Virus record (IMG/VR): IMGVR_UViG_3300042558_000512
Span: 1 to 26,483 of that record
Length of the DNA: 26,483 nt
DNA from: a virus
Reading direction: 5' to 3' (one strand)
Positions 2,636-26,481 of this stretch are shown here, in pieces. Both the position numbers and the translations under genes were made by a program. Positions within the stretch are counted from its first letter, which is position 1. Each line of letters begins with the position of its first letter. The notes beneath the pieces are model-generated. The model had not been told where the DNA came from. It saw only the letters and a list, made by a program, of their open reading frames with translations, and searched no databases.

Positions 2636-3748
2636 ATGAGATTTAATGAAATAACCGAGAGTTCTCCAGAAGACCGATTTAAAAAGTATATCAGACCAGT
2701 GGTAAAAACCACTCCAAAGATTGAAAAGGATAATAATCCTGCAGGAAGAACAACTGACCACGTGGAATGGAAAGTTACGACTCCAACTGGTGAGATTCAC
2801 AGATATAATTCTAAAAAACAAGCACAAGAAAAGTTTGATTCTTTTGGCCAACAAGATGTGGCGGAAGGCATTGTAGGTGACATGTATCACGGAGCTAAAC
2901 ACGGAATTAAACTTATGACTAGTCCTAGTTACCGCGCATTAAACAAAGCAGCTAATGCTTCTCACGATTTAAGTTATAGTTTGAAAATGGCAGAACGTGA
3001 CGATATGATAAGAAAATATGTTAAAAGATTTGGTGAATTACCGGGTTTCTATGCAAATGACCCAGCAATGATTAAAAAATTCCTAGGGAAAGGTTCCAAT
3101 AATATTACTTCGGAGGGTGTGGAGAAAGGTGATAAAAAGCCCTATCCTAAGACTTGGCACGATGTTGATCCTAAACTTGGTAAGCAAGTTGATAAAATGA
3201 GTCAGGCAGAAAAAGTCAAAAAAGGTTTAGCACATCCCAATACACTGAAGAAAAGTAAAGAGCAAGGTGTGGCGGAAGGTGCAGCACTACCTCCTGAAGT
3301 AATTGAGTTGATAAAGAAAATTGCTCAAAGTTCAGCAACACCAGAACATAAAAAAGCCATGATTGATGCCTTGGTTGCAAAACACAGTAAACAAGGTGTG
3401 GCGGAGGGTGAAACTTGGTCAAAGCACAATAACAAACGTGCAGGTGGGATGAGTAAAAAGAGTGTAGCCAGTTATCGCCGCAGTCATCCTGGTAGCAAGA
3501 TTCAAACAGCAGTAACAACTAAACCAAGCAAACTTAAAAAAGGCAGCAAAGCAGCAAAGCGTAGAGCTAGCTTTTGTGCAAGAATGCGTGGAATGAAGAA
3601 ACATCGTACCGGTGCAAAAACTGCAAACGATCCAAATAGCAATATAAATAAAAGTCTACGTAGATGGCATTGCGAATCTATAGAAGAACTACAAGAATTA
3701 GTAATGCTTGCTGAACAATTTATTAGGAATAAGAAAAATGAACTTTAA
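2636..3748 (+). CDS. Modular VAEG-repeat protein, candidate packaged head protein
   Basis: A 370-residue basic protein. The start MRFNEITESS resembles the short T4 capsid-targeting sequences, with ITE|S as a possible prohead-protease cut. Three copies of QGVAEG or QDVAEG (residues 73-78, 210-215, 253-258) divide it into four modules: one with WKVTTPTGEIHRYNSKKQAQ, a long charged module, a short helical module (LPPEVIELIKKIAQ), and a very basic C-terminal module with two cysteines (KKGSKAAKRRASFCARMRGM ... RRWHC). That last module recalls small phage/virus domains of unknown function. It overlaps the next gene by 11 bases. I infer a virion polyprotein; no enzymatic motif is seen. Confidence 0.8.
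   Translation: MRFNEITESSPEDRFKKYIRPVVKTTPKIEKDNNPAGRTTDHVEWKVTTPTGEIHRYNSKKQAQEKFDSFGQQDVAEGIVGDMYHGAKHGIKLMTSPSYRALNKAANASHDLSYSLKMAERDDMIRKYVKRFGELPGFYANDPAMIKKFLGKGSNNITSEGVEKGDKKPYPKTWHDVDPKLGKQVDKMSQAEKVKKGLAHPNTLKKSKEQGVAEGAALPPEVIELIKKIAQSSATPEHKKAMIDALVAKHSKQGVAEGETWSKHNNKRAGGMSKKSVASYRRSHPGSKIQTAVTTKPSKLKKGSKAAKRRASFCARMRGMKKHRTGAKTANDPNSNINKSLRRWHCESIEELQELVMLAEQFIRNKKNEL
2852..2868 (+). repeat. VAEG repeat word, copy 1 (Q-D-V-A-E-G)
   Basis: CAAGATGTGGCGGAAGG, one base off the consensus CAAGGTGTGGCGGAAGG (G to A turns Gly into Asp). In frame at residues 73-78 of the 2636 protein. The same variant occurs at 25745-25761 on the other strand. Confidence 0.9.
3263..3279 (+). repeat. 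VAEG repeat word, copy 2 (exact consensus)
   Basis: Exact consensus CAAGGTGTGGCGGAAGG, at residues 210-215 of the 2636 protein, between a charged module and the short LPPEVIELIKK module. Confidence 0.9.
3392..3408 (+). repeat. VAEG repeat word, copy 3
   Basis: CAAGGTGTGGCGGAGGG, a silent GAA to GAG change only. It marks the boundary before the basic cysteine-containing C-terminal module (residue 259 onward). Confidence 0.9.
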
Positions 3749-5258
3749 AGAATTACACGAGGGCGCAGAGCCAAAGATGCCGGGTGCCCCAAAAGGTATC
3801 TCAATTATGACACCTCAGCAATTTGTTGCTAGTGCAGGTGACATGCCTGAAGAAGAAGGTGTGGCGGAAGGCCAGGTGACACCTGATCCTTATGATCGAG
3901 GTTACTACGATGGTCAAAGAATGGGATCAAACTCGTATCATAATCCTTATAGTAGAGCAGATGAACCCACTGAGTGGGATGAATATAAATCGGGGTTCAA
4001 TATGGCCCAGATAGAATTACAAAACGATCTTGAAGACAACGGGTTTTCAGAAGGTGTGGCGGAGGGCCAAGAACACTTAGATAGAATTCGTAGTCTTTCT
4101 GGGTTAGGTGAAGCAACCAAACTACCAGCACAAACTCGTGATTTAGATAGTCAAGAGTTTCAAGACTACATGAAACGTATCGTAGGCACACCTGACTTAG
4201 ATAAAGCCGGTAACGTTAAGGTAGATAAAAAGGGCAATGAAAAGTATACTACTGGCAAGACTGCCGGCGACAAATACAAAATGCCCTATATCCATCGTAG
4301 TAGTGTAGTCTCATACTTAAGTCCAGATGGTAAGTCATACGATGAAGATGCGGTTAAGAAAACATTATCAATTCGTCCTAAAGCATTATTAAAACAAAAC
4401 GAAAAGATGAAGCATAGTAATGGAGAGTTTGAACAATTCTTTAACGTTGGATTCGCAGCATTGGTAGGTATTGCATTAGATGAACAAACAAATAATCTAA
4501 TTGTTGTTAATACTTGCCCCGGTGCTGGTTCATGTAAAGTTGACTGTTTCGCTATGAAGGGCGGTAAGATCCAATTTAAGGCAGCTTGGCAAAGTGACGG
4601 AAGAATACTAACATATCTATTGAATGATCCAGATGGTTTCTTTAATCAACTAAGCAATGAAATCTCTGTTGAATCACAAGCAGCAGCAAAGGGTGATAAG
4701 AAATTCCCTAATGGTTGGCAAGTAACAGTTCGCTGGCATGATGCCGGTGACTTCTTCAGTCCAGAATACTTAGATATGGCATTGAAGATGGCTGCTAAAC
4801 ATCCTGATGTTAGATTCTATGCTTACACTAAGATGGCAGGAGCAGCATTAGCTCAGAAGCCAGATAACTTTATTATCAATTGGAGTGAAGGTGCTAACAC
4901 TGCACAAGAAAAACAAGTTAAAGCAAAAGATCCAAACTTAGATACAACTAAAAATAGCCGCATCGTTCCAGAAAAACTATTCTATGATTTACTAGCTAAA
5001 GATGAGAAAGGTAACTTGAAAAAGACTGATGACGGAGCATGGCAACCTGCTAGTCCTGAGGCTCTTGCTGAAATGAAACAACGTATTGCAAAAGAATACG
5101 GTATTAGTGTTTCAAGCATATTAAGTTATACTGAATATATGGCCAAACGAAATTCAATTCCTTCTGGCATGAAGTATAATGTTATTGTTGCCCCGGGCGA
5201 AGGCGATGTTAGTGCCAATGATCCTGGTGTACTAAGTACATTATTGTTAAGACACTAG
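3738..5258 (+). CDS. GP88-like domain protein fused to VAEG modules
   Basis: A 506-residue protein. The ATG at 3738 is chosen because AGGA precedes it and the result, MNFKELHEGA, resembles a T4 capsid-targeting sequence with LHE|G as a cut site; ten more codons are open upstream inside the previous gene. VAEG motifs at 40-45 and 105-110 bound a YDRGYYDGQRMGS...YKSGF module. From about 190 on it resembles the GP88 family of phage proteins (function unknown): a CPGAGSCKVDC cysteine cluster (C260, C266, C270), VTVRWHDAGDFFSPEYLD and VRFYAYTKMAG. The cysteines suggest a metal site. It ends convergently with the epimerase gene, the two stops sharing CTA (5255-5258). Confidence 0.82.
   Translation: MNFKELHEGAEPKMPGAPKGISIMTPQQFVASAGDMPEEEGVAEGQVTPDPYDRGYYDGQRMGSNSYHNPYSRADEPTEWDEYKSGFNMAQIELQNDLEDNGFSEGVAEGQEHLDRIRSLSGLGEATKLPAQTRDLDSQEFQDYMKRIVGTPDLDKAGNVKVDKKGNEKYTTGKTAGDKYKMPYIHRSSVVSYLSPDGKSYDEDAVKKTLSIRPKALLKQNEKMKHSNGEFEQFFNVGFAALVGIALDEQTNNLIVVNTCPGAGSCKVDCFAMKGGKIQFKAAWQSDGRILTYLLNDPDGFFNQLSNEISVESQAAAKGDKKFPNGWQVTVRWHDAGDFFSPEYLDMALKMAAKHPDVRFYAYTKMAGAALAQKPDNFIINWSEGANTAQEKQVKAKDPNLDTTKNSRIVPEKLFYDLLAKDEKGNLKKTDDGAWQPASPEALAEMKQRIAKEYGISVSSILSYTEYMAKRNSIPSGMKYNVIVAPGEGDVSANDPGVLSTLLLRH
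3855..3871 (+). repeat. VAEG repeat word, copy 4 (E-G-V-A-E-G)
   Basis: GAAGGTGTGGCGGAAGG, where the first codon is Glu instead of Gln. Residues 40-45 of the GP88-like protein, 31 residues after the putative LHE|G cut. Confidence 0.9.
4050..4066 (+). repeat. VAEG repeat word, copy 5 (E-G-V-A-E-G)
   Basis: GAAGGTGTGGCGGAGGG, carrying both the Glu codon of copy 4 and the silent GAG change of copy 3. Residues 105-110, just before the LDRIRSLSGLGEA segment. Confidence 0.9.
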
Positions 5259-6088
5259 ACCTTAAGAAGTTCGTCTAAAGAGTATAACTCTTTCATATAG
5301 GGTGACACATTATCTAATACAGATACTGCTAAGTCACCCTTTCTTCTTGGACCTATCTTTGTAAGCAAATTAATATTAGGTATGTTATTTACTTCTTTGA
5401 ACTTATTAACTATCTCAGCAACAGTATAACCTACCCCATGCCCTAAGCATTCTATTTGATTACTTGGCTTCTCAATAGCAGTACGCAATGCGTCACATAT
5501 CTCATTTACATGAACATAATCACGCATACATGTTCCATCTCGGGTATCATAGTCATTCCCAAAAATAGTAAACTCGCCCTTTTCTTTTGATTTAATTAAA
5601 TTGTGCATTAAACCATCTGGATTAGTTGGTGCAAATCCATCACTGCCAATTACGTTGTAAAATCTAAAGATTGTGTAATCTTTGGGATTATGTACAGTAC
5701 AATATTCACGCACAACATCTTCCGCAGCACGTTTACTAATACCATATGCGCTACCACAATCTTGTGCTGCACCTGTGCTAGCAAAGATAAAGTTCTTTGT
5801 CTTAATCTTATTAAGTACATTCATCGTCCCATTCAAATTGGTAATATAATATTGAATAGGTATTTGTTCACTTTCACCTACATTAACCAATGCTGCTAAA
5901 TGTATTACTGCATCAAATTCTTGATCAATGGTAAATAATTTACGAATATCAATATTATACCAATCTTTAAGCCGATCTGTCTGCGGAACATTAATATCTA
6001 ACCCATATACTTCATATGAATCTGCTAACATCTTGGAAAGATGACTACCGATGTAACCTGAATTACCTGTTATTAATACTTTTTTCAT
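5255..6088 (-). CDS. NAD-dependent sugar epimerase/dehydratase (extended SDR, GalE-like)
   Basis: A 277-residue extended short-chain dehydrogenase/reductase. The Rossmann motif GNSGYIG is at residues 8-14, HLAALVNVGES follows at 63-73, and the catalytic pair is Y115-x3-K119 (AYGISKRA). FRFYNVIGS and MRDYVHVNEI are typical of UDP-glucose/UDP-GlcNAc 4-epimerases. It is shorter than GalE (about 338 aa), mainly in the substrate half, so the exact sugar cannot be assigned. It follows the glycosyltransferase with a 4-nt overlap, so the pair probably prepares and transfers a nucleotide sugar. The acceptor (phage DNA, capsid or host surface) is unknown. Confidence 0.88.
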   Translation of the reverse strand: MKKVLITGNSGYIGSHLSKMLADSYEVYGLDINVPQTDRLKDWYNIDIRKLFTIDQEFDAVIHLAALVNVGESEQIPIQYYITNLNGTMNVLNKIKTKNFIFASTGAAQDCGSAYGISKRAAEDVVREYCTVHNPKDYTIFRFYNVIGSDGFAPTNPDGLMHNLIKSKEKGEFTIFGNDYDTRDGTCMRDYVHVNEICDALRTAIEKPSNQIECLGHGVGYTVAEIVNKFKEVNNIPNINLLTKIGPRRKGDLAVSVLDNVSPYMKELYSLDELLKV

Positions 6089-7416
6089 TCAAAACTAAAA
6101 AGACTTTCGCCCTCTTCCTCTGGTTCAAACGATGGGTCTTTAGTTAAGTAAGTATCATCGTCTGTATATATTATACGAAATTTATGCTTGTTTGTCAACA
6201 CCGACTTTATATCGTCAATGCACAACAATCTACGTCCAAGATCAGTATTAAACTCACTTAACTTAGTTGTAGTTTCTTCACATATCTTTGCGGTATTGCT
6301 ATTAGACTTTTTACATTCAAAATCATTGAAACAACTGTTCCATTTGTGAAACACACCCGCTTCCACTTCTTGCGTATGTTTCAATGCACCTGTATCATAG
6401 TATGATTTAGCTGTGGTATATTGGTTGTATAGTGCTGTAACTACTTCAGCCATATGCTTTTTGTCAGTTCTATAAAAATAGACACTATTGAAGTTTTTAG
6501 TCCAGCGCATATCATCTAAGCAAACTGTTGGCATCTGTGATATTTCTTCATAGAAAGCCATACCATAACTCTCAACTGAACTAGGATTGAATGCAACTCT
6601 GCAACCGGTAATGAAGTCTACTTTTTGTTGTCCAATGATGCTGACACCGATCTTATAATCAGTTATGCCCATCTTCTTAAATCGTTCTTCAAACTTCTTT
6701 GCACCATTCGCATTAGTCATAACTCGTGCAGGTAGTTTAGTTTGTTCAATCAAGTCTAAGTAAAGTTCTGGGTTCTTACCTTCTTCCCATCTACCAATAA
6801 ACAATACACCTTCACGCAGCACATGATGTTCATCTAGTAATCCCATCTCAGTGATTGGAATAGGTAACTGATATGCATTAGTAAAGTGTAACTGATTAAA
6901 CTTACTCTGTGTACCAATAGTGATACCGTACAATTCCAATTGCTTACGCATCAACTCATTGGTATTGTACAAGAAAGGATTCTTTGTGTCTTTGAAAATT
7001 TGACTTTCTAAATGAGTATATGCAATTATTTGTATAACATCTTCTAAACCCATTGTGCTAGCAACCTGAACAGTTTCGTAAGTATTGCAGATTAATGCGT
7101 CATAGATATTATGTTCCAATGCTTCAACAATACTATTGCGAAAGTTAACCATACGTTCATAGCAGAATGTATCACCATACATAAAGATATTGCTATGGTC
7201 ATAGTACTTTAATGATTCCAGCGGAGCTATAACATTTGCCTTCAAAGATTTGACAAACTCATTATTTTGTGGTTCTTTGTCTGTTATGATATCAACTTTG
7301 ATGTTGTGACTATCCATTAACTCACAGAAACTTTTTGCAAACTGCCCTATGCCACCGTGTGGTACTAGTGTTTGATAGCTTACTAAGAAGCCAATTCGTT
7401 TGTTATAGGTTCGCAT
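6085..7416 (-). CDS. Glycosyltransferase, GT4-like (GT-B fold)
   Basis: A 443-residue protein. The N-terminal half carries HGGIGQFAKSFCELM (typical GG-x-G donor/acceptor loop of GT4) and the C-terminal half carries VLFIGRWEEGKNPELYLDLI, then NPSSVESYGMAFYEE, the usual E-x7-E-like region for nucleotide-sugar binding. The start is the ATG at 7416, preceded by GAGA at 10 bases; a TTG four codons upstream (7428) is possible but less likely. It overlaps the 7403-7606 gene. The last 80 residues are charged and poorly conserved by eye, ending PEEEGESLFSFE. Donor and acceptor are not deducible. Confidence 0.82.
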   Translation of the reverse strand: MRTYNKRIGFLVSYQTLVPHGGIGQFAKSFCELMDSHNIKVDIITDKEPQNNEFVKSLKANVIAPLESLKYYDHSNIFMYGDTFCYERMVNFRNSIVEALEHNIYDALICNTYETVQVASTMGLEDVIQIIAYTHLESQIFKDTKNPFLYNTNELMRKQLELYGITIGTQSKFNQLHFTNAYQLPIPITEMGLLDEHHVLREGVLFIGRWEEGKNPELYLDLIEQTKLPARVMTNANGAKKFEERFKKMGITDYKIGVSIIGQQKVDFITGCRVAFNPSSVESYGMAFYEEISQMPTVCLDDMRWTKNFNSVYFYRTDKKHMAEVVTALYNQYTTAKSYYDTGALKHTQEVEAGVFHKWNSCFNDFECKKSNSNTAKICEETTTKLSEFNTDLGRRLLCIDDIKSVLTNKHKFRIIYTDDDTYLTKDPSFEPEEEGESLFSFE

Positions 7417-7606
7417 GTTGTTTCTCAAATGGATTTTCAGTTGGAACAGTAATCCAATCAGTTAACACATTTCGTTTTGCAAATGAACCTGTTCTTGGAT
7501 TTTGTATACTATAATCTGTTATTTCTCTATCAAGGCGATATTGTAATATTTTTTCTGGGATATTGCAAGGTCCCTCAACCACAAGCCAACGCATTTCAAA
7601 CTTCAT
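7403..7606 (-). CDS. Small hypothetical protein
   Basis: A 67-residue protein, MKFEMRWLVVEGPCNIPEK..., with a good AAGGA site 8 bases before the ATG. It overlaps the upstream gene by ATGA (7603-7606) and the glycosyltransferase by 14 bases, so it is part of the QueE-glycosyltransferase operon. No known domain, signal peptide or membrane segment. Basic and aromatic residues are spread evenly. The function is unknown. Confidence 0.7.
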   Translation of the reverse strand: MKFEMRWLVVEGPCNIPEKILQYRLDREITDYSIQNPRTGSFAKRNVLTDWITVPTENPFEKQHANL

Positions 7607-7848
7607 ATTATATCCTTTAATCTTGCTATCAAATATTCATCTTTATTATACCAACGATGTTCATAACTAAAGTTTATATCACCGCTTCTGTACATTGCAG
7701 TAACACAATATGCAAACTCTAGCCATATTCTACGCTTTGTTATATGGCATAGTCTAGGTATTAGGGTAAACTTTAATTGTTTACCCACAGTTCTTTGTTT
7801 GAAATGATAGTCACTAGCTGATTGTGTAGTCCAATCAATTGAGGGCAT
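7603..7848 (-). CDS. Small hypothetical protein
   Basis: An 81-residue protein, MPSIDWTTQSASDYHFKQ.... The ATG at 7848 overlaps the TGA of queE (TGATG) and has GGGGA six bases upstream; a GTG four codons earlier is a weaker choice. It is rich in aromatic and basic residues (RRIWLEFAYCVTAMYRSGD, HRWYNKDEYLI). No family is recognised. Coupling to queE suggests co-expression with the 7-deazaguanine genes, without implying a role there. Confidence 0.68.
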   Translation of the reverse strand: MPSIDWTTQSASDYHFKQRTVGKQLKFTLIPRLCHITKRRIWLEFAYCVTAMYRSGDINFSYEHRWYNKDEYLIARLKDII

Positions 7849-8696
7849 CAAGTTCCCCACTCGTTTTTGAAAAGAGGGACTTGAAGTCTATCACTATAAC
7901 GCCAGCCTAAACGCATTGCTTCAAGTGCAACATTTTTAGCATTCATGTTATATAACTTTTCAACACCACCACATGGCATCAAGTAAACATGGCCCCTAAA
8001 GCCGCGAGTACGATATTGATTAACTGCTGCTTGTGCTTCTTCTACATCTTGTTTAGATGCAACCACAAACTTCAAATATGTATGACCCAATTGCGAGTAT
8101 TCATAGATAATTTCAGGACATATTGCTTCTTCCCACTTCTCACCGCTAATACTAAGTTTAGGACTAACGCTAAATGTAATTGCACCCTTAGAACGATTGA
8201 TAGCCCATTGATGCAAATAAGTTTTCAACTCTTGTTGCAATGGTTGAGTACCATTTGTTTCAAAAGTTAGTTCTTGTAAACCCTTCATATTTTCATGTGA
8301 AAGTAAATCAATATAACTACGTTGCCACCCTAATAGTGGTTCGCCCCCTGTAATAACAAGATGTTCTTCCATCCAACGGTTGTGTGGAAGCATTGTCATA
8401 ATGCTATCAACAATACTATCAGTAGTAAGTACCGGGCTGAAATCTTTGAATCGTGGATCCCAACTTGCATAGCTATCACAACCTGTACTAACTAATGGAA
8501 GTTGTTTATAATCAGTGTAGTAATGAACACGGGCTGCGATATCTTCTACTTCACGACTTAGTTCACCTTTAGGCATACCGAAACCTGCACATTTGAAGTT
8601 ACATCCAAAAGTTCTAAGGAAAATACTTGGTACTCCGATATATCGGCCTTCACCTTGAATACTATAAAATAATTCTGCTACTTTTAATTTTGACAT
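7848..8696 (-). CDS. queE: 7-carboxy-7-deazaguanine synthase (QueE)
   Basis: A 282-residue radical SAM enzyme that converts 6-carboxytetrahydropterin to 7-carboxy-7-deazaguanine (CDG). Family marks: ELFYSIQGEG (8-17), FLRTFGCNFKCAGFGMP (26-42), VITGGEPLL, FETNGTQ and SVSPKLS. The iron-sulfur cysteines are unusual: C32 and C36 are spaced CX3C, but the third ligand appears to be C73 in STGCDSYASW, 36 residues later, where canonical QueE has CX2CDT close by. The insertion thus lies inside the cluster loop. Start ATG with GGA at 8 bases. It works with QueD and FolE of the same region. Confidence 0.93.
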   Translation of the reverse strand: MSKLKVAELFYSIQGEGRYIGVPSIFLRTFGCNFKCAGFGMPKGELSREVEDIAARVHYYTDYKQLPLVSTGCDSYASWDPRFKDFSPVLTTDSIVDSIMTMLPHNRWMEEHLVITGGEPLLGWQRSYIDLLSHENMKGLQELTFETNGTQPLQQELKTYLHQWAINRSKGAITFSVSPKLSISGEKWEEAICPEIIYEYSQLGHTYLKFVVASKQDVEEAQAAVNQYRTRGFRGHVYLMPCGGVEKLYNMNAKNVALEAMRLGWRYSDRLQVPLFKNEWGT

Positions 8697-8858: not shown

Positions 8859-9076
8859 TATTTCTTTGCTGGTTTTGGTGGCATATCGGGAAATGATCCC
8901 CAAGGTTGTTTCAATTCATCTGATACCCCAATTGGGCCACCTTTATTTACCCACGCAATATTGATAACAATAGTTGGATTACCATTGACTATAACATATC
9001 GTGTAAGAAAGTCACTATAATCATAGGTACCATCCGGCACCCATTTAAACATTTTGAAATCTGATTCAGAACTCAT
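8858..9076 (-). CDS. Small hypothetical protein
   Basis: A 72-residue protein, MSSESDFKMFKWVPDGTYDY..., ending in a proline/lysine tail (FPDMPPKPAKK). The ATG at 9076 has AGGGAAG nearby; a TTG six codons upstream is rejected. It overlaps the end of queD by 11 bases and touches the membrane-protein start. The central stretch GNPTIVINIAWVNKGGPIG looks like a beta-rich fold. The function is unknown. Confidence 0.65.
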   Translation of the reverse strand: MSSESDFKMFKWVPDGTYDYSDFLTRYVIVNGNPTIVINIAWVNKGGPIGVSDELKQPWGSFPDMPPKPAKK

Positions 9077-9533
9077 TGTCTTCCCTATGCCCAACTCTCA
9101 TGGCCATATTAGCATCAGTTTCGCGGACTTCTACTTTGCAGCACCATACACGATCCTGCTCACCATAATCTTTTAAGAAAATCGTGTTAATGTATTCATA
9201 TAAGAAGTTAGCAATACCTTCACATCCGGTCTTTTCTACTTCAGTGATCTTTGCTAGCTTTAGCTTGCCTAAGTTTAGCAAATGTTCACGCATGGGATCA
9301 TCTTGTGCCACCAATAGTGTATGATCAAACCAATCTTCAAGCAAGCCCTTGAGCGGTTTCAATCCACCAAAGTCCATGCACCAATTACGTGCATCTAGTG
9401 TATCGCATTCAAATTCTAAATGAAATGATAGTGCGTATCCATGTAACAAATTGCAATGACTGTCGGCACGCCATTGACGATAAGCTACTGGGCCTATTTG
9501 ATTATAGGTCTTTGTTGAAATGTATTTTGCCAT
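9066..9533 (-). CDS. queD: 6-carboxy-5,6,7,8-tetrahydropterin synthase (QueD)
   Basis: A 155-residue member of the PTPS/QueD family, which makes 6-carboxytetrahydropterin from dihydroneopterin triphosphate. The catalytic block is SHCNLLHGYALSFHLEF: nucleophile C27 and metal ligand H31, with Y33 where most QueD proteins have the second His of HGH; H26 may take over as ligand. WCMDFGGLK, WFDHTLL and VEVRETDANMA follow in family order. AGGAG precedes the ATG. It has its own strong promoter (9551-9579) and is the second step of the pathway FolE-QueD-QueE. Confidence 0.93.
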   Translation of the reverse strand: MAKYISTKTYNQIGPVAYRQWRADSHCNLLHGYALSFHLEFECDTLDARNWCMDFGGLKPLKGLLEDWFDHTLLVAQDDPMREHLLNLGKLKLAKITEVEKTGCEGIANFLYEYINTIFLKDYGEQDRVWCCKVEVRETDANMAMRVGHREDNEF

Positions 9534-10466: not shown

Positions 10467-10467
10467 T

Positions 10468-11165: not shown

Positions 11166-11334
11166 TTTTTCCTCCGCAGGTGCAGTTACGACCTTGATTA
11201 CAATTTCCAGTGCAGATACTATTTGTATTACGCCAAGCATTAGTGAATATTGCCATAAATGATGCTAGTAGTGGATTGAGAAAATACCCAATAGCAATGC
11301 CGTACACTAGATATTCTAAGTTAAACCAATTCAT
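11152..11334 (-). CDS. Small membrane protein with CTGNCNQGRNCTC motif
   Basis: A 60-residue protein. The N-terminal half is hydrophobic (YLVYGIAIGYFLNPLLASFMAIF, in part a membrane helix); the C-terminal half has four cysteines in CTGNCNQGRNCTC (about 41-53), a motif I recall from short phage proteins of unknown function. The ATG at 11334 overlaps the folE stop (TAATG). Its 3' end encodes the GGAGG used by the next gene. The cysteines could bind a metal or form disulfides if exposed to the periplasm. Confidence 0.65.
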   Translation of the reverse strand: MNWFNLEYLVYGIAIGYFLNPLLASFMAIFTNAWRNTNSICTGNCNQGRNCTCGGKNGIS

Positions 11335-12008
11335 TATCGTCCCCGTGCTAATTGATAGAATTCTGCTCTAGCTGCTGGGTCACTTTTGAATCCTCCACCT
11401 AGCTTACTTGTAACAGTACTACTACCTGTATCCTCAACTCCCCTTGACGCAACACAGTAATGTTTTGCATCAATCATTACTGCCACATCTTCTGTATCAA
11501 GAATATATTGTAAGGTGTGAAATACTTGTTCAGTCAATCTTTCTTGTATTTGTGGACGCTTGCTAAAGTATTCTACTATACGATTGATTTTACTCAATCC
11601 AAGCACTTTCTGATTGGGAACATAAGCAACAGTTGCAAGACCATCAATAACTACAAAGTGATGTTCACAATTACTTTGTACATTGATATTGCGTTCGCAC
11701 ACCATCTCATTGTATTTCATCTTGTTATCAACTGCTGTACATTTTGGGAATGCTTCATAATCAAGACCCCAAAATATTTCGTTGACATACATCTTAGCAA
11801 CACGCTTTGGTGTATCTATTAAACTATCGTCTGCCAAGTCAAGACCTAAGATACGCATAATATGTGCAAAGTGCGCTTCAATGTGGTCTATTTTTTCTTT
11901 ACGGTCGTAGTTGTTTGGATTTGTAGGAGTTTCAACTCCCATCTTAACCAAATGTTCGTGTACTTTTTGACCCAACTCTGGATCTGTTTTTTGTTTATTA
12001 TAACTCAT
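11334..12008 (-). CDS. folE: GTP cyclohydrolase I (FolE)
   Basis: A 224-residue enzyme making dihydroneopterin triphosphate from GTP, the first step toward pterins and 7-deazaguanines. Visible: DTPKRVAKMY (66-75), the zinc-site motif NCEHHFVVIDG (C114, H117), VLGLSKINRIVEYFSKRPQIQERLT, and HYCVASRGVED supplying the second zinc cysteine C185. The length fits bacterial FolE (about 222 aa). AAAGGAAGG stands before the ATG. The long leader holds a late-like octamer and an 8-bp inverted repeat. In this phage it most likely feeds QueD rather than folate. Confidence 0.95.
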   Translation of the reverse strand: MSYNKQKTDPELGQKVHEHLVKMGVETPTNPNNYDRKEKIDHIEAHFAHIMRILGLDLADDSLIDTPKRVAKMYVNEIFWGLDYEAFPKCTAVDNKMKYNEMVCERNINVQSNCEHHFVVIDGLATVAYVPNQKVLGLSKINRIVEYFSKRPQIQERLTEQVFHTLQYILDTEDVAVMIDAKHYCVASRGVEDTGSSTVTSKLGGGFKSDPAARAEFYQLARGR

Positions 12009-12469: not shown

Positions 12470-13645
12470 TTAATATTTTGATTCGCGGGTATGTTTTCTA
12501 TAATCAGTGGACATTCTCAACATACTCTGTCCACCACCTTCTAAAATATCAATGATACGATCAATTGTACCATTATTGTAGTCACTAATCTCTCCTATTC
12601 TTGGGTGAGGGAAATCCAATAACGCTTCTAACTTATCCATAGCATCCTCTATACTCCAAGGAACATAAAGTCTGGTATGGTCATTAGAAAAAGTTTCAGG
12701 AAAACTACGATAAGCAGGATACAGCACATTACATCCTAGAGCATCTGCTTCACTGACTGTATTGGAAACCCAATCTTGAAGGGCGCAATTAAACACAACA
12801 CGACTATCATTAACGATATTATAGTAATCATTTTTTTCTAAGTTTGCGTAAACTTTAAGTTTACCTGCTGCTACCATTTCACGGGTTCGTTGCATATAGC
12901 TTTCGCTATTTGACTTAAGCCATCCTCCACTACACACACAGAATTCAACCTCTTCCAATCCAGATTGAGCATGCCATGCTTCTATCAAATCCATATAAAA
13001 ATCGGGCTGCTTCTCTTGATCCCAACGTGCAGAGAATACTACACGGTATTTACGATCAGCAAATGGTTTAATATGAGTAACACGACTTTGTACTTCTGCC
13101 TTGCCGAATGCTAATCCACTGATATTGTAGATGGGACTAGTCCACCCTGCAATCTTCATGTGCATTACCATTTCTTCATTAGTAGCAAGTATACCATCTA
13201 CGAACGAGTCCAACATTTTTTCATAATGTCCCATCCACTTAGACATGCCCCAAACATGAACAAAATCATCAGGATCAATGGACTGAGCAAGACAACGAAC
13301 ATAAATCCGAGGCCTGAGAGTCGGGTCGATCTGCTGAAGAATATAGGGTAAAGACTCCAAGCCTGGCTGAAACATATCTTCAAAGTAGATAACATCTTCA
13401 TTGTTTAGTTCTCCTGCTTTCATCATACGGATCAAGTTCATCAATTGACTCATACCGAAGTATGTGCGTCCATGGGCATCTAATACTTGACCTGTTACAA
13501 TTGCTTGGTCATTACCTAGTGTTTCGCCGGGTACTACAACATAGTTGATGCCTCTACGATCAAAGACACTAGTATTCCAGTCTTGTAATTGTAGAGTATA
13601 CCTTGCTTTGTAGGGCTCAAGCCCCATGTAATAGAGTTTACGCAT
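12470..13645 (-). CDS. Glycosyltransferase, GT-B type
   Basis: A 391-residue protein starting MRKLYYMGLEPYKARYT. The C-terminal half shows the GT4-like features VVFSARWDQEKQPDFYMDLIEAW, NDYYNIVNDSRVVFNCALQDWVSNTVSEADALGC in pieces typical of the E-x7-E region, and a nucleotide-binding fold. The N-terminal half has FGMSQLMNLIRMM and YFEDMFQPGLESLPYIL. The ATG at 13645 overlaps the upstream stop (TAATG). It is not obviously related to the 6085-7416 transferase. The acceptor is unknown; glycosylated phage DNA, tail or capsid are all possible. Confidence 0.78.
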   Translation of the reverse strand: MRKLYYMGLEPYKARYTLQLQDWNTSVFDRRGINYVVVPGETLGNDQAIVTGQVLDAHGRTYFGMSQLMNLIRMMKAGELNNEDVIYFEDMFQPGLESLPYILQQIDPTLRPRIYVRCLAQSIDPDDFVHVWGMSKWMGHYEKMLDSFVDGILATNEEMVMHMKIAGWTSPIYNISGLAFGKAEVQSRVTHIKPFADRKYRVVFSARWDQEKQPDFYMDLIEAWHAQSGLEEVEFCVCSGGWLKSNSESYMQRTREMVAAGKLKVYANLEKNDYYNIVNDSRVVFNCALQDWVSNTVSEADALGCNVLYPAYRSFPETFSNDHTRLYVPWSIEDAMDKLEALLDFPHPRIGEISDYNNGTIDRIIDILEGGGQSMLRMSTDYRKHTRESKY

Positions 13646-13851
13646 TATGGACGAGCGTTTTCTTGCCACTGATCTCTCGCAACTTTACCAGTTGCGTATT
13701 TTGTATATTGACGATAGACATAACTACGTTGATCGTAAAGTTCTGCTTCGTTGTACTTGTAACCAAAATCCACACAAAATCCTAGATAGTTTTCTAGGTC
13801 CTCAAAGATTTGAGTTACACGCGGGTTTGATTGAAAAGTTTGTTTTGCCAT
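13645..13851 (-). CDS. Small hypothetical phage protein
   Basis: A 68-residue protein, MAKQTFQSNPRVTQIFEDLE..., with FCVDFGYKYNEAELYDQRSY in the middle. It is tyrosine-rich and probably helical. AAGGAA precedes the ATG at 13851. The type recurs in phages next to glycosyltransferases as I recall, but no function is known. Confidence 0.7.
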   Translation of the reverse strand: MAKQTFQSNPRVTQIFEDLENYLGFCVDFGYKYNEAELYDQRSYVYRQYTKYATGKVARDQWQENARP

Positions 13852-20230: not shown

Positions 20231-20259
20231 AGTATACATGCCTTGCGTAGAAAAGTCAA
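20231..20259 (-). promoter_or_regulatory. Sigma70-type promoter for dsbA and DNA polymerase
   Basis: Minus-strand TTGACT (20254-20259), 17-nt spacer, TATACT (20231-20236). The -35 lies over the stop of the PP-loop gene. Transcription would enter dsbA and then the polymerase. Unlike the other promoters here no long inverted repeat is evident, only the GTATAC palindrome at the -10. Confidence 0.8.
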
Positions 20260-20864
20260 ACATTTTGCTGATTTTCTACAATCTTTTTAACCACAGTTTT
20301 CAAACCGGGGTTAATATGTAATGCATGTGGCATTAGATGTGTTCGTACATAGTTACGCATGTATTTTGTGTCATCATTGCTATGATCGTGACACCAATCA
20401 ATAGCTTTTCGGTCGCACCAGTTAACAAATTCACTTTTACGTGTAGTTAGAAATGGGCGTACAACATTGTTTCTTTTTGCTGGGATTACCTTAGGCTGTC
20501 CATGCATTGATGACCAAAGATATGTTTCTACGCAGTCATCCAGATGATGTCCAGTAATAATTGGGCCCAATGAATCACCAATAGTGTCTAAGAAGTCATA
20601 GCGTTCATTACGCCAATGTTCTTCCATGCTAAGTTCTTTGGGTTTATTGTTTTTGATCATTCCAACCACAAGAGGGAGACTACGATCAGCGGAGAATTTA
20701 TCAACGAATTCAAATGCACGTTCACTATTCTCGGTTCCATGATGGAAAAACGCACAAGTAACACTGTGTTTCTGAGAAAGGAAATCTGTAATAGCAACCG
20801 AATCAACTCCGCCGCTAAGTGCAACCACGATTTTGTTTGGCAATGGAAAGAGAAGTTTTAGCAT
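20256..20864 (-). CDS. TilS-like PP-loop ATPase
   Basis: A 202-residue N-type PP-loop ATPase. SGGVDS (17-22) binds ATP; ITGHHLDDCVETYLW, RPFLTTRKSEFVNWC, DHSNDDTKYMRNYVRTHLMP and NPGL are the order and wording of tRNA(Ile)-lysidine synthetase TilS rather than of QueC. The C-terminal domains of full TilS (over 400 aa) are missing. TilS adenylates C34 of tRNA-Ile and attaches lysine; a free-standing short form could do this or may have been recruited for another adenylation. The ATG at 20864 has no Shine-Dalgarno, and a TATAAT ends 7 bases before it, so the message may be leaderless. Confidence 0.85.
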   Translation of the reverse strand: MLKLLFPLPNKIVVALSGGVDSVAITDFLSQKHSVTCAFFHHGTENSERAFEFVDKFSADRSLPLVVGMIKNNKPKELSMEEHWRNERYDFLDTIGDSLGPIITGHHLDDCVETYLWSSMHGQPKVIPAKRNNVVRPFLTTRKSEFVNWCDRKAIDWCHDHSNDDTKYMRNYVRTHLMPHALHINPGLKTVVKKIVENQQNV

Positions 20865-20882
20865 CTATGCATTATAGCATAG
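20865..20882 (-). promoter_or_regulatory. Palindromic extended -10 element at the PP-loop gene start
   Basis: CTATGC-ATTATA-GCATAG is a perfect inverted repeat whose minus-strand centre is TATAAT preceded by TG one base away (extended -10). The -35 position (20894-20899, TTTCAA) is poor. Transcription would begin about at the A of the ATG (20864). Confidence 0.6.
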
Positions 20883-20890
20883 AATACGTT

Positions 20891-21499
20891 TTATTGAAAG
20901 ATTTCCGGGTGATCTTTGCCGAATACTTTCATATATTTTCCGGCACTCATATCAGCTAGCATTTCAATTGGGCTACCAGGATAACTATCTCCCGGTTTAA
21001 TCATGTTCAATTCACCCTGACGCACATGGGTAAGTTCATGGTACACGGTACGCATGATATCAACCATATTACGATTAGCAACGTATACCCAAACGCTTTT
21101 GTCACTTTCTGAATGACGACCGGTATGATGACCTTCTTGTGCTTCTTCAGTATCGTAACTGAATTCAATTTCGGGTATTGATTGTAGATTAAGGTTTTGT
21201 GCTGCAAATTGAATGAATTTCTGCATTATTGGATTATCTTCCAAGAAGTTTGGCTCATCATTTGCTTCATCTAGTTTATTCTTAACCCATTCATCCGGTG
21301 TTCGTTTGAATTTGTGAACAAACAAGTCATGCAATGCTTTGCCAGTAATGCTATGTCTATTTGCTACTTGACGCATTAATTTGTCAATAGTAGTATAATC
21401 GTGCTTTTGTAGTGAAGGCAACCGTTTTGCTAATTCTAATGCAGCGGATTCAATAATGATGTGTTCTGTGAGCATTATATATTTATCAAAAGTGCTCAC
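20891..21499 (-). CDS. Zinc metallopeptidase-like protein (HELTH motif)
   Basis: A 202-residue protein. Residues about 20-80 form a helical module (LAKRLPSLQKHDYTTIDKLM ... TGKALHDLFVHKFKRTPDEW). The second half holds TVYHELTHVRQGELN (HExxH 154-158) and SPIEMLADMSAGKYM (E179 as probable third zinc ligand), a gluzincin-like arrangement. The start is GTG (21499) giving MSTFDKYIMLTE, or ATG (21475); neither has a clear ribosome site. It could act on cell wall, on virion proteins, or as an anti-host protease. It is not the T4-type prohead protease, which is a serine enzyme. Confidence 0.75.
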   Translation of the reverse strand: MSTFDKYIMLTEHIIIESAALELAKRLPSLQKHDYTTIDKLMRQVANRHSITGKALHDLFVHKFKRTPDEWVKNKLDEANDEPNFLEDNPIMQKFIQFAAQNLNLQSIPEIEFSYDTEEAQEGHHTGRHSESDKSVWVYVANRNMVDIMRTVYHELTHVRQGELNMIKPGDSYPGSPIEMLADMSAGKYMKVFGKDHPEIFQ

Positions 21500-21535
21500 T
21501 TTAACGAACTAAATGGGTAGCGATTCCTATTCGTT

Positions 21536-21582
21536 GGCCAGCAGCCGGCCACACGGCCCTAAGGGTGTTCTTTACCAAGAAC
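21536..21582. other. GC-rich cluster of small hairpins in the 21500-21571 intergenic gap
   Basis: Three GGCC blocks (21536, 21547, 21555) pair as GGCC-agcagcc-GGCC or GGCC-acac-GGCC, followed by CCCT-A-AGGG (21557-21565) and GTTCTT-tacc-AAGAAC (21567-21582), the last covering the stop of the 21572-22024 gene. The stretch is far richer in GC than its surroundings. No T-run follows on the minus strand, so it is not a standard terminator, but it may end or stabilise the upstream message. Confidence 0.5.
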
Positions 21583-22024: not shown

Positions 22025-22063
22025 ACTGATATTTAGTATGATATATTATTGTTAATATTAAAC

Positions 22064-22513: not shown

Positions 22514-22532
22514 CCAATCCCATTATATCTTT

Positions 22533-23483
22533 CTAACCTTTTACTAAATCTAATTCAACTAGTTGTCTATATGGTTCATCACCAGTCCATCTATCGCCCT
22601 GTACTCTTGTTTCTTCTAATGCAGTGCTTGCATCAAATGGGTTTTTAACTAATTGACCAGTCTGACTAATTAATCCTTGACTCATTGCTTGAATCATATC
22701 ATTGGTGACAAATCTTCTACGATTTGCACCACGCAAGAACACATTAACTTGAATAGGCTCATCACCTTTCATTTTAATCCAGTGTGTCATTCTATTGCGA
22801 CCTTCGTGATTACTCACTTTACCTAGTTGGCTAAAATCTCCATCTTCCCATTCAACTGGATCTTTAATCTCTAAGAACGGATAAGCAATCTTTCCCCCAC
22901 CTTGCATATGCTTTTCAACATCAGCATTTCTATCACTTGCTCCCAATGGATGTGATAGTTTTAAGAATGTACTCGGACGCATCTTTACTTTGAGACCAAA
23001 GTAATCTATATCAGTTCCTTGAGGAGTTTCTCCCCATCCTCTTGGATCTAATTCTGCTTCATTTACGTCAGACCCCCAGTACAAACTCTTGCCTCCCTTT
23101 TGAATCGGCTTAAATCCTTGACCTTTATAGAACTTAGTTAATTTACTTTGACTTACTTGTCCCTTGTCCCACGGGAACAAAGTAAGAGCAATGCCATCTT
23201 CGCGAGCCATTGCTTGAAGTTCTTGCATTGCACGGCTACCCACACCTTGACGTAATGGATACGCTTGAAACCATTTGACTTCAACTGCACCTCGTTTACT
23301 AAAGCTAGGTGTTAATTCAAACATAGCAAACTGTTGATCATCTCCTTTGCCCCATATCATAACATGATTGTTTTGCATGGTAGTTGGATACTTTTGATAG
23401 ACTCGTTCAATCCATGCTTTAGCAGCATTGTTATTTCCTATTTTAATAGGTTCAGTTTCAGTGATGAATTCTTTTGCTCTCAT
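22533..23483 (-). CDS. GNAT acetyltransferase-like domain fused to an unknown phage domain
   Basis: A 316-residue protein. The start MRAKEFITETEP resembles the T4 capsid-targeting sequence. Residues about 15-135 look like a GNAT fold: FAMFELTPS, VEVKWFQAYPLRQGVGSRAMQ (acetyl-CoA loop RQGVGS 78-83) and KLTKFYKGQGFKPI. From about 155 on there is a second domain with IDYFGLKVKMRPSTFLKLSH, KHMQGGGKIAYPFLEIKDP, NHEGRNRMTHWIK and DMIQAMSQGLISQTGQ, recognised only as a recurring phage domain. It overlaps the dps gene by TAATG. A packaged acetyltransferase delivered on infection is conceivable, by analogy with T4 Alt. Confidence 0.72.
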   Translation of the reverse strand: MRAKEFITETEPIKIGNNNAAKAWIERVYQKYPTTMQNNHVMIWGKGDDQQFAMFELTPSFSKRGAVEVKWFQAYPLRQGVGSRAMQELQAMAREDGIALTLFPWDKGQVSQSKLTKFYKGQGFKPIQKGGKSLYWGSDVNEAELDPRGWGETPQGTDIDYFGLKVKMRPSTFLKLSHPLGASDRNADVEKHMQGGGKIAYPFLEIKDPVEWEDGDFSQLGKVSNHEGRNRMTHWIKMKGDEPIQVNVFLRGANRRRFVTNDMIQAMSQGLISQTGQLVKNPFDASTALEETRVQGDRWTGDEPYRQLVELDLVKG

Positions 23484-23923
23484 TACTCACGAGCTTTTTT
23501 AAGCGTAGCACGAATCATCCATGCCTTCTTGGAATACAAGTCCTGTAATTCAGCTAGGTAATTAGCAATACCCTGTGCTTTTTCTTGTGTCGCAATATCA
23601 AATAATTCAGTTACTAACTTAATCATTTTTTCACAATCAACTAGTAGTTCTTCAAGCATCAATTCAGCACGAGGAATTTTATATTGTTCCTCAATGAGGC
23701 TCAATTCTAGCATTCTACCTAAACTGCCCGGAGAATAACTACCTAGTGTTCTTATGTATTCGGCAATAGTATCAATAGTTCCATAGATTTCATCATACAT
23801 TTTATTTAAAAATTTATGATATTGTGGAAAATTGCTTCCTTCAATGTTCCAGTGAAATCCGTGTGTTTTAGTGTATAGTACAAAGGTACTACCTAATAAC
23901 ACTTTTAAGTTTTCTACTAACAT
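23483..23923 (-). CDS. dps: Dps/ferritin-like protein
   Basis: A 146-residue Dps-family protein, MLVENLKVLLGSTFVLYTKT.... The ferroxidase ligands are in place: THGFHWNIEG (H24), YHKF (H36), TIDTIAEYI (D51, E55); the spacings 12, 15 and 4 are those of E. coli Dps (H51, H63, D78, E82). Dps oligomers bind DNA and oxidise and store iron. The ATG at 23923 is chosen because the upstream extension would overlap the VAEG gene and lacks homology. No basic N-terminal tail is present, so DNA binding by the tail is doubtful. It sits between two genes of the packaged-protein type. Confidence 0.9.
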   Translation of the reverse strand: MLVENLKVLLGSTFVLYTKTHGFHWNIEGSNFPQYHKFLNKMYDEIYGTIDTIAEYIRTLGSYSPGSLGRMLELSLIEEQYKIPRAELMLEELLVDCEKMIKLVTELFDIATQEKAQGIANYLAELQDLYSKKAWMIRATLKKARE

Positions 23924-23924
23924 A

Positions 23925-25412
23925 TTAATCTTTCTTTTTAGTGTTGACGTTGATAGCTTTACCACTACGATCAGGGTTAGGATCTTCTCTACGCTTTCTT
24001 GCTGCGGCACTTGCACGACCTTTTTTACCTAAACTGTGAGCTTTACTTTGAGGCAAACATTTTGGTTTACCTTCTCCGGGTTCTCTAGCACATGGACCTT
24101 TAATCTTCCCTTTAGTATCCATGCGAACCCATTTTTCTTTATTAAACCAGTCATGTAAACTTTCGTCTGCCTGTTCAATACCTTCTAGTATAGAACTTTC
24201 ATTCTTACTACTGTTACCCCAATTACTTGCACCTTTATTACGACACTTAACTAATGCACCACTAGCATAAGCACTTGGCCATACTTTGTAACGGCTCTTT
24301 ACTTTATAGTAGCAAGCATCTTTCTTTTCATTAATCATCAATTCGCTGAACATAGGACCACTGCAATGTGGACATTTTTCTTCCGCCACACCTTGCGATT
24401 CAAACTGTCCTGCATCCTTAGCGACTCTACGCTCACTACCTAGACTAGGAAAACCTTGTTGATGTGTTGATTGTTGAGTTTTTTTTGCGGCAGCATCCTG
24501 TGCCTTTGCTTTTAATAAATTTAAAGTTCTAGTATCTAATTGTGTGCCATCTTCTTTTGCTCTTTGAACTAATACATTATAGTATTTGTTCGCTAACTCT
24601 ACTTGTTGAGCATTTATATTAGGCATAGTATGTGCGTTGGCTCCCAATGCACCCAAGGTCATTGCGCCTCCTGCAACAACATCTTTCCAGCCTTCCGCCA
24701 CACCTTGCTGACTTTGCTGTTTACGTTTAGCATCTCTTGCTTGTCTTTTAATTTTTTCAGCATCAAGGACCTTGCGTCTATGAGCTTGTTCTTGATCGTA
24801 TTGTGAACGAGCCCTGTTAATTTGAATATGGGAAGCAATATCACCTTGCTCTTTTGCACCAGGTTTCCCTAGCTTATATGCAAGTTCACGTTGGTGGCTT
24901 TTAACTGCTTGTAAATCTCTGTCTGATAAATCGTTATATTCGTGATCTGTGTGCATATCCAATGGTACGTGCGGATATAAGAAGTGGTAACGCTTTTTGC
25001 TATTAACATCTCCTGCAACTTCCGCCACACCTTGCTTTGGTTCAAATACAGTAGCATCACCGGTGTTGCGATTGTATACTCCAACTATTTCACCTTGACT
25101 ATTTCTAGCAATTGCTCGGTTGACCGTGCCGCCACCATGTTTGTCATTAGTGAACTTGACATCACTGCCATGTTCATTGCGAACTTGTGCTGCCCATGCT
25201 TTAACACTGGTGCCTTGTGAGCCTTCCGCCACACCTTGCTTAGTATCGTTAGCAAATTGCTTTTTAGTTGCTTTTACTATGCCACTAAAACGTTTATCGC
25301 CGCGTTTAAAGTCGCCTTCTTTGTCAGCTTTACTAGCATCGGCGGCGGCAGCAGTTTTGTATTTTGCTAACTTTTCAGTAGATAATTCTGTTAAAAAATC
25401 TGATGGTTTCAT
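23925..25412 (-). CDS. Modular VAEG-repeat protein with zinc-ribbon-like module
   Basis: A 495-residue protein with five modules separated by four VAEG-type motifs (Q59, Q127, Q236, Q340). The start MKPSDFLTEL resembles a capsid-targeting sequence. Modules: a basic KTAAAADASKADKEGD segment; a WAAQVRNEHGSDV segment; a charged helix rich in Q and R; a hydrophobic WKDVVAGGAMTLGALGA segment with helices; and a C-terminal part with CPHC, KSRYKVWPSAYASGALVKC and WVRMDTKGKIKGPC, ending in a basic tail. The last motif reads VAEE, not VAEG. The cysteines suggest zinc binding. No enzyme is recognised; likely a virion polyprotein. Confidence 0.8.
   Translation of the reverse strand: MKPSDFLTELSTEKLAKYKTAAAADASKADKEGDFKRGDKRFSGIVKATKKQFANDTKQGVAEGSQGTSVKAWAAQVRNEHGSDVKFTNDKHGGGTVNRAIARNSQGEIVGVYNRNTGDATVFEPKQGVAEVAGDVNSKKRYHFLYPHVPLDMHTDHEYNDLSDRDLQAVKSHQRELAYKLGKPGAKEQGDIASHIQINRARSQYDQEQAHRRKVLDAEKIKRQARDAKRKQQSQQGVAEGWKDVVAGGAMTLGALGANAHTMPNINAQQVELANKYYNVLVQRAKEDGTQLDTRTLNLLKAKAQDAAAKKTQQSTHQQGFPSLGSERRVAKDAGQFESQGVAEEKCPHCSGPMFSELMINEKKDACYYKVKSRYKVWPSAYASGALVKCRNKGASNWGNSSKNESSILEGIEQADESLHDWFNKEKWVRMDTKGKIKGPCAREPGEGKPKCLPQSKAHSLGKKGRASAAARKRREDPNPDRSGKAINVNTKKKD
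24379..24395 (-). repeat. VAEG repeat word, copy 6 (Q-G-V-A-E-E)
   Basis: Minus-strand CAAGGTGTGGCGGAAGA: the last base is changed, so the predicted P1' residue is Glu rather than Gly. It precedes the CPHC zinc-ribbon-like module. Confidence 0.88.
24691..24707 (-). repeat. VAEG repeat word, copy 7 (exact consensus)
   Basis: Exact consensus on the minus strand. It precedes the WKDVVAGGAMTLG module. Confidence 0.9.
25018..25034 (-). repeat. VAEG repeat word, copy 8 (Q-G-V-A-E-V)
   Basis: Minus-strand CAAGGTGTGGCGGAAGT: consensus up to base 16, then V-A-G-D follows. Together with copy 6 it shows that conservation ends at the E codon. Confidence 0.88.
25222..25238 (-). repeat. VAEG repeat word, copy 9 (exact consensus)
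   Basis: Exact consensus on the minus strand at residues 59-64, after the basic first module of the 495-residue protein. Confidence 0.9.
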
Positions 25413-25413
25413 A

Positions 25414-26481
25414 TTATTTCTTCTTGTTATCTATCTTGTCTGCTAATTTTTTACCAGGCTCTGCTTCTTTATCTTTAGTCATTTTTTCTTTTTGTTTGTC
25501 TGCGGCTGCTTTATATTCTGGACTATTAATATCTCTATATGGAGTCTTTTGTTTTTCTTTTGGTACTGAACCCTCTGCTACTTTTTTCTTAGCAGCATCC
25601 CAAGCAGCATCAGTCTTTACATTATATTCTTTGCCACCGGCACCAATATCAGCAACTCTGCTGCCTATATCTTGTTTTGTTTTAACTACAGCTTTATTGT
25701 GTTTATCTACATTCTTTTGTAGTTTTTTAGCAAAGTCAATTTTGCCTTCCGCCACATCTTGACTACCGCTAGCAGCTTTGGCTTTAGCTTCTTCTCTAGA
25801 AGGACTATATCCATGTGATCTTGCTGAATCATGCTGATTTGGGTATACGGAAACTTTGTACATTTTTCCATCTTTGAATACGAACCAGTCACTTGGATCT
25901 AAATGATGATGCTCATCATCTTCACGGTCTCTTGCACCGCCTATGCCACTAAAGCCTCTGCCTTCTGCCATAGCATCTGGCTCCTGTTGCATCTCTTGAC
26001 TGCTGATTAGATAATCCATTACAGTAACCATCATGCCTTTTGCGGCGCCTATCTTCTCTGATACCCATTCTGGGAATTCAGATTGGACAGATAATCTCTT
26101 ATCTAAATCACTAGCAGCACGGGCTATAGTGTGTAAACTGTTCTTTAATGTGTGTCCTTCATGTTCACCTTGATCTAAGTCTTGTTTAACAAATCCGGTT
26201 CTTCTTAATCTGCCTTGTCCTGGGATAACGATTAAATCTTGTTCTGCTAGATCATCTTCATTAACTTTCTTCATATCGGATCTGATTTCCACCTTAGTCT
26301 TACCATATTTCTTTTTGAATTCTTCGTCGGTTAACTCTTTTAAATCTATTGTAAGTTGTTTGACTTTACCTTCATTAATGCTATTAGCGTAAGGACCCTT
26401 CTTTTTAGATTTGCCCTTCATTAATTGCTGTACAGGCTTTAATCCAGGAACATTGATATTTTCGCGGGTTTGAGTCATCAT
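25414..26481 (-). CDS. Modular VAEG-repeat protein, possibly 5'-truncated by the window
   Basis: At least 355 residues. ATG codons at 26481 and 26478 could be the start, but only two bases remain upstream, so a longer N-terminus cannot be excluded; no capsid-targeting-like start is visible. VAEG-type motifs: QDVAEG (241-246, the DNA word), plus MAEGRG and KVAEGS with diverged codons, and NSINEGKV, which fits I-x-E|G. A segment LHTIARAASDLDKRLSVQSE with PEWVSEKIGAAKGMM recalls a recurrent phage head-associated module. The C-terminus is lysine-rich. It is followed by the next VAEG gene with a 1-base gap. Confidence 0.75.
   Translation of the reverse strand: MMTQTRENINVPGLKPVQQLMKGKSKKKGPYANSINEGKVKQLTIDLKELTDEEFKKKYGKTKVEIRSDMKKVNEDDLAEQDLIVIPGQGRLRRTGFVKQDLDQGEHEGHTLKNSLHTIARAASDLDKRLSVQSEFPEWVSEKIGAAKGMMVTVMDYLISSQEMQQEPDAMAEGRGFSGIGGARDREDDEHHHLDPSDWFVFKDGKMYKVSVYPNQHDSARSHGYSPSREEAKAKAASGSQDVAEGKIDFAKKLQKNVDKHNKAVVKTKQDIGSRVADIGAGGKEYNVKTDAAWDAAKKKVAEGSVPKEKQKTPYRDINSPEYKAAADKQKEKMTKDKEAEPGKKLADKIDNKKK
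25745..25761 (-). repeat. VAEG repeat word, copy 10 (Q-D-V-A-E-G)
   Basis: Minus-strand CAAGATGTGGCGGAAGG, identical to copy 1 at 2852 although 23 kb away and on the other strand, which suggests copying between loci. Confidence 0.9.

Follow-up and report, generated by a model that had tools for sequence, protein, structure and literature searches.

Four genes on a 26,483-base viral contig (37% GC genome) probably encode head-packaged polyproteins that are cut by a prohead protease and whose modules are swapped at a linker conserved at the DNA level. The contig was analysed at full length and is referred to here as the window. Its DNA polymerase matches those of other uncultured contigs at 85-100% identity, while the identity to polymerases of cultured phages (such as Sinorhizobium phage Phosso, Vibrio phage 2.275.O and the RaK2 group) does not exceed 49%. 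We assign the system to a group of uncultured large T4-related phages; we found neither a cultured phage or isolate carrying the motif nor a proteomic study of any phage that has it. In the mechanism that we propose, a T4-like N-terminal targeting sequence would recruit the polyproteins into the prohead, where an S77 prohead protease of the gp21 type would cut after Glu at [LIVM]-x-E, most commonly at [QEK][GD]VAE/G (the slash marks the predicted cut), and release several small products that would stay in the head and probably be injected with the DNA. Sec-like or Tat signals on some products would become functional only after the cut frees their N-termini. The linker would double as a 15-nt DNA seam, AAGGTGTGGCGGAAG, and recombination between copies of this seam would necessarily stay in frame and would swap, add or drop whole modules, with each new junction automatically a protease site.

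The motif [QE][GD]VAE[GEV] occurs ten times in four ORFs arranged in two clusters, at the positions given in an initial annotation of this DNA, against a chance average of 0.20 copies; none of 100 dinucleotide shuffles reached ten. The literal string QGVAEG, after which that annotation named the motif, accounts for only four of the ten copies, residue 1 being Q or E, residue 2 G or D, and the last residue G, E, or V; we did not find this string in the literature. The start of gene 2, previously placed at 3708, is corrected to 3738, and gene 4, previously given as 25414-26481, is incomplete at the window edge; its relatives start about 22 residues earlier, with MRFKQIVEN. The genes and sites are as follows:

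2636-3748, plus strand: polyprotein gene 1, 370 aa, N-terminus MRFNEITES, C-terminal DUF6321 module (E=4e-10), module joins at 2852, 3263, and 3392
2852-2869, plus strand: linker QDVAE/G in gene 1, CAAGATGTGGCGGAAGGC
3263-3280, plus strand: linker QGVAE/G in gene 1
3392-3409, plus strand: linker QGVAE/G in gene 1, preceding the DUF6321 module
3738-5258, plus strand: polyprotein gene 2, 506 aa, start MNFKELHEG, two linkers followed by a GP88 domain (E=7e-25)
3855-3872, plus strand: linker EGVAE/G in gene 2
4050-4067, plus strand: linker EGVAE/G in gene 2
20891-21499, minus strand: likely member without the motif, phrog_10346, with a module shared with the polyproteins, an LDE/A junction, and an HExxH-containing part
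22533-23483, minus strand: likely member without the motif, capsid-targeting-like N-terminus MRAKEFITE, weak GNAT match
23925-25412, minus strand: polyprotein gene 3, 495 aa, start MKPSDFLTE, five modules, of which the final one includes a DUF5872-like part
24378-24395, minus strand: linker QGVAE/E in gene 3
24690-24707, minus strand: linker QGVAE/G in gene 3, with the Sec-like signal GWKDVVAGGAMTLGALGANA/HT directly behind
25017-25034, minus strand: linker QGVAE/V in gene 3
25221-25238, minus strand: linker QGVAE/G in gene 3, behind the N-terminal module
25414-26483, minus strand: polyprotein gene 4, incomplete at the window edge
25570-25587, minus strand: diverged site KKVAE/G in gene 4, ordinary codons
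25744-25761, minus strand: linker QDVAE/G in gene 4
25960-25977, minus strand: diverged site DAMAE/G in gene 4, ordinary codons

The HExxH and the LDE/A junction of the ORF at 20891 were read by eye, and no significant family match was obtained for this ORF; an additional LGE/A site lies in the GP88 gene. Only a minority of the modules could be assigned a function. A literature search for DUF6321 and DUF5872 returned DUF5872 only, once, in an algal virus genome paper.

A search of the whole 26-kb record for S77 found no protease gene, which is absent because the record is a fragment; the window likewise lacks a capsid gene, and we recognised no terminase gene in it. The initial annotation proposed a survey of motif-carrying relatives for T4-type protease genes, and Peptidase_S77, the T4-type prohead protease, is present in each of the five long contigs with the shared polymerase. 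Across 37 records, S77 occurs in all 10 that have a Gp23 capsid gene and in none of the others, which taken by itself is weak evidence because the capsid and protease genes adjoin and their linkage is nearly automatic. In one relative, G001, the genes run 20-67-68-21-22-23 as in T4; its gp21 is 36% identical to T4 gp21 over 156 residues, its capsid N-terminus reads KQLLAE/SSA, and its gp22 scaffold has 15 [LIVM]xE[GAS] sites (2.1 expected), compared with 10 in T4 gp22 (2.6 expected). The published T4 cleavage rule is L/I-x-E (PMC9026906), and VAE/G had been described as close to it. The scaffold of these phages itself carries VAE/G, and P3 of the motif is Val rather than Leu or Ile; the G001 gp22 sites include KLVAE/G and three more with Val at P3, so this group of phages commonly has Val there. 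With Val at P3 and with D, E, or V at P1′ of some motif sites, a few may be cut poorly. In G003 and G004, endonuclease-like genes (HNH-like and GIY-YIG-like by eye) adjoin the major capsid gene at G003:C1:22370-23125 and G004:C1:101625-102602, the same place in different phages.

Predicted cut sites of other sequence also lie at module borders. The first-module border of gene 3 is KQGVAE/G in the window, KKIKE/G in G001, and KKVSE/S in G003, at the same residue, and the border before DUF6321 is GVAE/G, DMDE/G, and EVDE/G, respectively. Among 46 distinct marine DUF6321 homologues, nearly all have Glu just before the module (for example, LHVSE/G, QIEE/G, and GILE/G), with L, I, V, or M at P3 in 29 of 45, and two of the marine sequences read MKSYSDIKNLTE/AAW and MKNYKEFKELAE/AAW, close to T4 MKTYQEFIAE/A, with the DUF6321 module directly behind. 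When QGVAE-type sites are masked, the polyproteins of G001, G003, and G004 still have 2.1-2.4 times the expected number of sites, compared with 1.2-1.4 times for other ORFs; the window taken by itself shows no significant excess. The earlier view of QGVAEG as a cutting linker is supported, with the amendment that other sites (VSE, LDE, IKE, VDE, and others) serve at borders too.

Signal peptides, which we called by pattern, lie directly behind such sites. A Sec-like cassette consisting of GWK, a run of Ala, Gly, and Leu, and then AxA, occurs in 16 distinct forms, all 16 directly behind [LIV]xE/ with the middle residue varying, one of them at 24690 in the window. Tat signals (RRGFL[KR]G plus a hydrophobic run) inside polyproteins are all, in nine of nine distinct cases, within 7 aa of a [LIV]xE-type site; six are at most 7 residues behind GVAE, residues within 12 of which make up only 4.6%, and the remaining three follow VSE/D, LDE/I, and MNE/D. 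Signals of the Sec and Tat types function at a free N-terminus, and their placement therefore argues for cleavage, from which we infer that the chains are probably cut; it also suggests that some products are exported after entry into the host.

The N-termini of the motif proteins (MRFNEITE, MRFTEFISE, and MKPSDFLTE; pattern M[KR]xxEF[IL]xE) resemble the T4 targeting sequence MKTYQEFIAE/A. Across four genomes, such starts (MRAKEFITE, MRFTEFISE, MRAREFIAE, MKTNEFLTE, and MKPSDFLTE) are found on motif proteins and a few others, MRAKEFITE and MKTNEFLTE being starts of proteins without the motif; resemblance is the sole criterion, and the pattern is loose enough that a few unrelated ORFs also match. 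The modules of the polyproteins recur in other orders in the cyanophage T4-GC 119 proteins, of which the S-SCSM1 member is annotated as a virion protein (its neighbour as hypothetical) and the S-B43 member as a structural protein; 45 virion proteins of S-SCSM1 were detected by mass spectrometry (PMC9602691). As in the window, T4-GC 119 proteins have DUF5872, DUF6321, and other modules in shuffled order with [LIV]xE/[GAS] borders, and in S-SM1, P-HM2, and S-SSM4 they adjoin terminase gene 16. Unlike the window proteins, the five compared have neither QGVAEG nor a DNA-conserved seam, and we found no literature describing T4-GC 119 proteins as polyproteins. The reading in the initial annotation is partly supported: the prohead entry and cleavage that it put forward draw support from several independent comparisons, through the S77 linkage, the sites in the phages' own head proteins, the conserved borders, the T4-like N-termini, the signals behind sites, and the marine homologue annotated as a virion protein. 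On these comparisons, cleavage by the prohead protease is very likely, packaging in the head scarcely less so, and injection of the products as separate effectors a plausible next step that we favour somewhat.

Cut products of this kind might instead be scaffold or core components comparable to T4 gp22, gp67, and gp68, filling or leaving the head, with no injected effectors. The abundance of [LIVM]xE sites, as in gp22, fits such a role, and fragments of the T4 core proteins mostly exit the head (PMC9026906). However, modules as diverse as GNAT, LysM, GP88, and signal-peptide-bearing ones would be needless in a scaffold, and their fast turnover resembles that of the T-even internal proteins, which defend against host nucleases (PMC3012670); we consider the scaffold role unlikely.

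The linker is conserved as DNA, in a near-invariant 15-nt unit, AAGGTGTGGCGGAAG, that is nearly always in one reading frame (typical codons CAA GGT GTG GCG GAA). A scan of IMG/VR in which the third bases of Val, Ala, and Glu were left free returned at least 149 sites, and the unit occurs at hundreds of sites across IMG/VR contigs. In 67 ORFs with at least two sites, GTG encodes the motif Val in 178 of 205 cases and GCG the Ala in 185 of 205, compared with 16% of Val and 6.4% of Ala codons outside the motif in the same ORFs. At other [LIVM]AE[GAS] sites in motif proteins, Ala is encoded by GCG in just 9 of 36, and the peptide alone therefore does not require GCG. Across 163 sites whose flanks are unrelated, information content is about 2 bits within the 15 nt and falls immediately to about 0.1 beyond them; because the first scan had the Q and first Gly codons fixed, part of their conservation reflects ascertainment. 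The unit does not align with the codons, starting at codon base 2 and finishing at base 1 of another codon, which accounts both for the first residue being mostly Q, K, or E (the codon is NAA in 91%, and TAA is a stop) and for the residue behind the cut being mostly G, A, D, E, or V (the sixth codon is GNN in 453 of 490). After two more scans, 456 of 462 exact 15-mer copies are in the VAE frame. In 257 Gb of bacterial and archaeal genomes, the 18-mer has 26 matches, never more than one per record and always in GC-rich DNA, a pattern expected by chance. The initial annotation had recognised the repeated linker and assigned it a single role, overlooking a conservation at the DNA level far beyond codon bias. 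A second piece conserved as DNA is that of the Tat signal, CGTAGAGGATTCTTA, found on unrelated modules (L086, L430, L473, L489, L523, L529, L044, and L137).

Single-linkage clustering merged most modules, and we replaced it with a junction test anchored at the motif. Among 627 non-redundant junctions, 239 pairs have the same left and different right modules, 248 the same right and different left modules, and 6 share both; controls shifted by 35 residues to either side gave left-only, right-only, and both counts of 1, 28, and 64 and of 33, 0, and 52. The motif thus has 239 and 248 exchange pairs, compared with 29-33 at the shifted positions. Exchanged modules are often 96-100% identical while attached to wholly unrelated partners; the left module at linker 4050 has another right module in L033, and the window and L123 have polymerases 99% identical, yet the modules of one gene differ. 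The DNA breakpoints of same-left pairs lie at positions 14-20, the 3′ end of the motif, in 45 of 45 cases, and those of same-right pairs at -10 to +1, mostly 0 or 1, the 5′ edge of the motif, in 54 of 54. These alignments show modules exchanged at the DNA-conserved linker. A RecA-family protein scores above the Pfam cut-off in four of the five long relatives, and with breakpoints at a short seam this makes short-homology recombination a natural route; we infer homologous recombination, by UvsX or annealing. The seam departs from an integron-like cassette in being 15 nt long, lying within coding sequence, and having no inverted repeat by eye.

The DNA conservation and the placement of breakpoints at the motif would also be expected if the motif were a recombination seam and nothing else, the multidomain proteins staying uncut and VAE/G being incidental, and a unit that is out of codon phase with free edge residues agrees with this. 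Against it, borders without the DNA unit still read [LIV]xE/[GAS], Sec-like and Tat signals stand directly behind the sites, and the frame is nearly always VAE; we regard a purely recombinational seam as decidedly improbable. Still less probable, by a wide distance, is a translational or RNA signal, such as an internal ribosome-binding site GGCGGAAGG starting separate products. On reading, the unit does contain a purine-rich, Shine-Dalgarno-like stretch, but start codons are not enriched downstream, Met is at P2′ in only 3 of 163 sites, and no Rfam match was found in the window. The codon before the xRR of the Tat signal, a former start by position, is ATG in two of nine and ATA, TTA, ATT, or ATC in seven of nine of these former-gene-start-like cases. 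Internal translation starts were rejected, as start codons are lacking behind the motif. Chance or codon bias, with a short, low-information linker happening to repeat in one genome, has a negligible probability and is refuted by the copy number, by the scarcity of matches in bacterial genomes, all single-copy and in GC-rich records, and by motif codons that run against the genome bias.

A head-packaged, protease-cut polyprotein has partial precedents. The T4 proteins IPI, IPII, and IPIII, with Alt, likewise combine an N-terminal capsid-targeting sequence with a variable payload (PMC9026906, PMC3012670); the targeting sequence of the three internal proteins ends in IxE/A and is cut by gp21 (PMC9026906), and IPI acts against a host nuclease once injected (PMC9026906, PMC3012670). 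In IPIII of T4, processing is blocked by Asp at the cut site (PMC9026906). Unlike the proteins described here, each T4 internal protein has a single payload and sheds nothing but a short propeptide, whereas the window polyproteins combine several modules per chain, separated by predicted cuts, with a DNA seam. By analogy, the system probably works as would T4 internal proteins linked in a single polyprotein. Polyvalent proteins are also many-domain chains delivered to the host and thought to be processed like polyproteins (PMC5512222), but the processing proposed there is by embedded metallopeptidase domains, whereas in the present system cleavage would come in trans, from the head protease acting on short linkers. 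Pfam searches of the four window proteins and 17 related polyproteins found no polyvalent-protein domains (metallopeptidase or other listed effectors), and the window system is not one of polyvalent proteins as defined. In the ejected head proteins of SPN3US (gp53 and gp54) and PhiKZ relatives, the prohead protease also cuts after Glu, with several cuts per propeptide (PMC10052503), but there propeptides are removed from one mature protein, and a modular payload and common linker are absent.

Elsewhere in the window, a Dps/ferritin-like protein (Pfam Ferritin, 3e-21) is encoded between polyprotein genes at 23483-23926 (-). QueE-like, QueD-like (PTPS), and GTP cyclohydrolase I genes lie with a 513-aa ORF at 7848-8696, 9066-9533, 11334-12008, and 14530-16071 (-); the ORF resembles tRNA-guanine transglycosylase/DpdA by eye and has no Pfam or NCBIfam match, and together these likely form a 7-deazaguanine modification set. 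A TilS-like PP-loop protein with a tRNA-lysidine synthetase domain (NCBIfam TIGR02432, above cut-off) is at 20256-20864 (-), and a UvdE-type UV endonuclease at 1531-2556 (-). A sugar epimerase and two glycosyltransferase-like proteins (5255-7428 and 12470-13669 (-)) possibly glycosylate DNA or the surface. Three small paralogous ORFs at 74-528 and 853-1095 (-) form a local duplicated family with the common repeats KFAELIVREC ... KHFGVEE; the one scanned has no Pfam match. PADLOC returned no convincing defence family, and late-promoter-like sites (TATAAATA) are not in excess in the window.

The fullest form of the proposal, to which we would give an even chance, is that a single 15-nt sequence would act as both seam and protease site, so that exchanges would yield new combinations of effectors, packaged in the head and injected separately, some addressed to the periplasm by Sec or Tat signals. 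This suggests revisiting existing cyanophage virion proteomes for semi-tryptic ends. If the proposal is correct, the linker would be a ready tag for loading several proteins per phage head, and hundreds of uncharacterised phage proteins could be interpreted, by one rule, as groups of distinct products. Injected proteins would be assorted like threaded beads, a single sequence joining them in DNA and parting them in protein, and this would explain how large T4-related phages diversify their payloads quickly while keeping reading frames intact.
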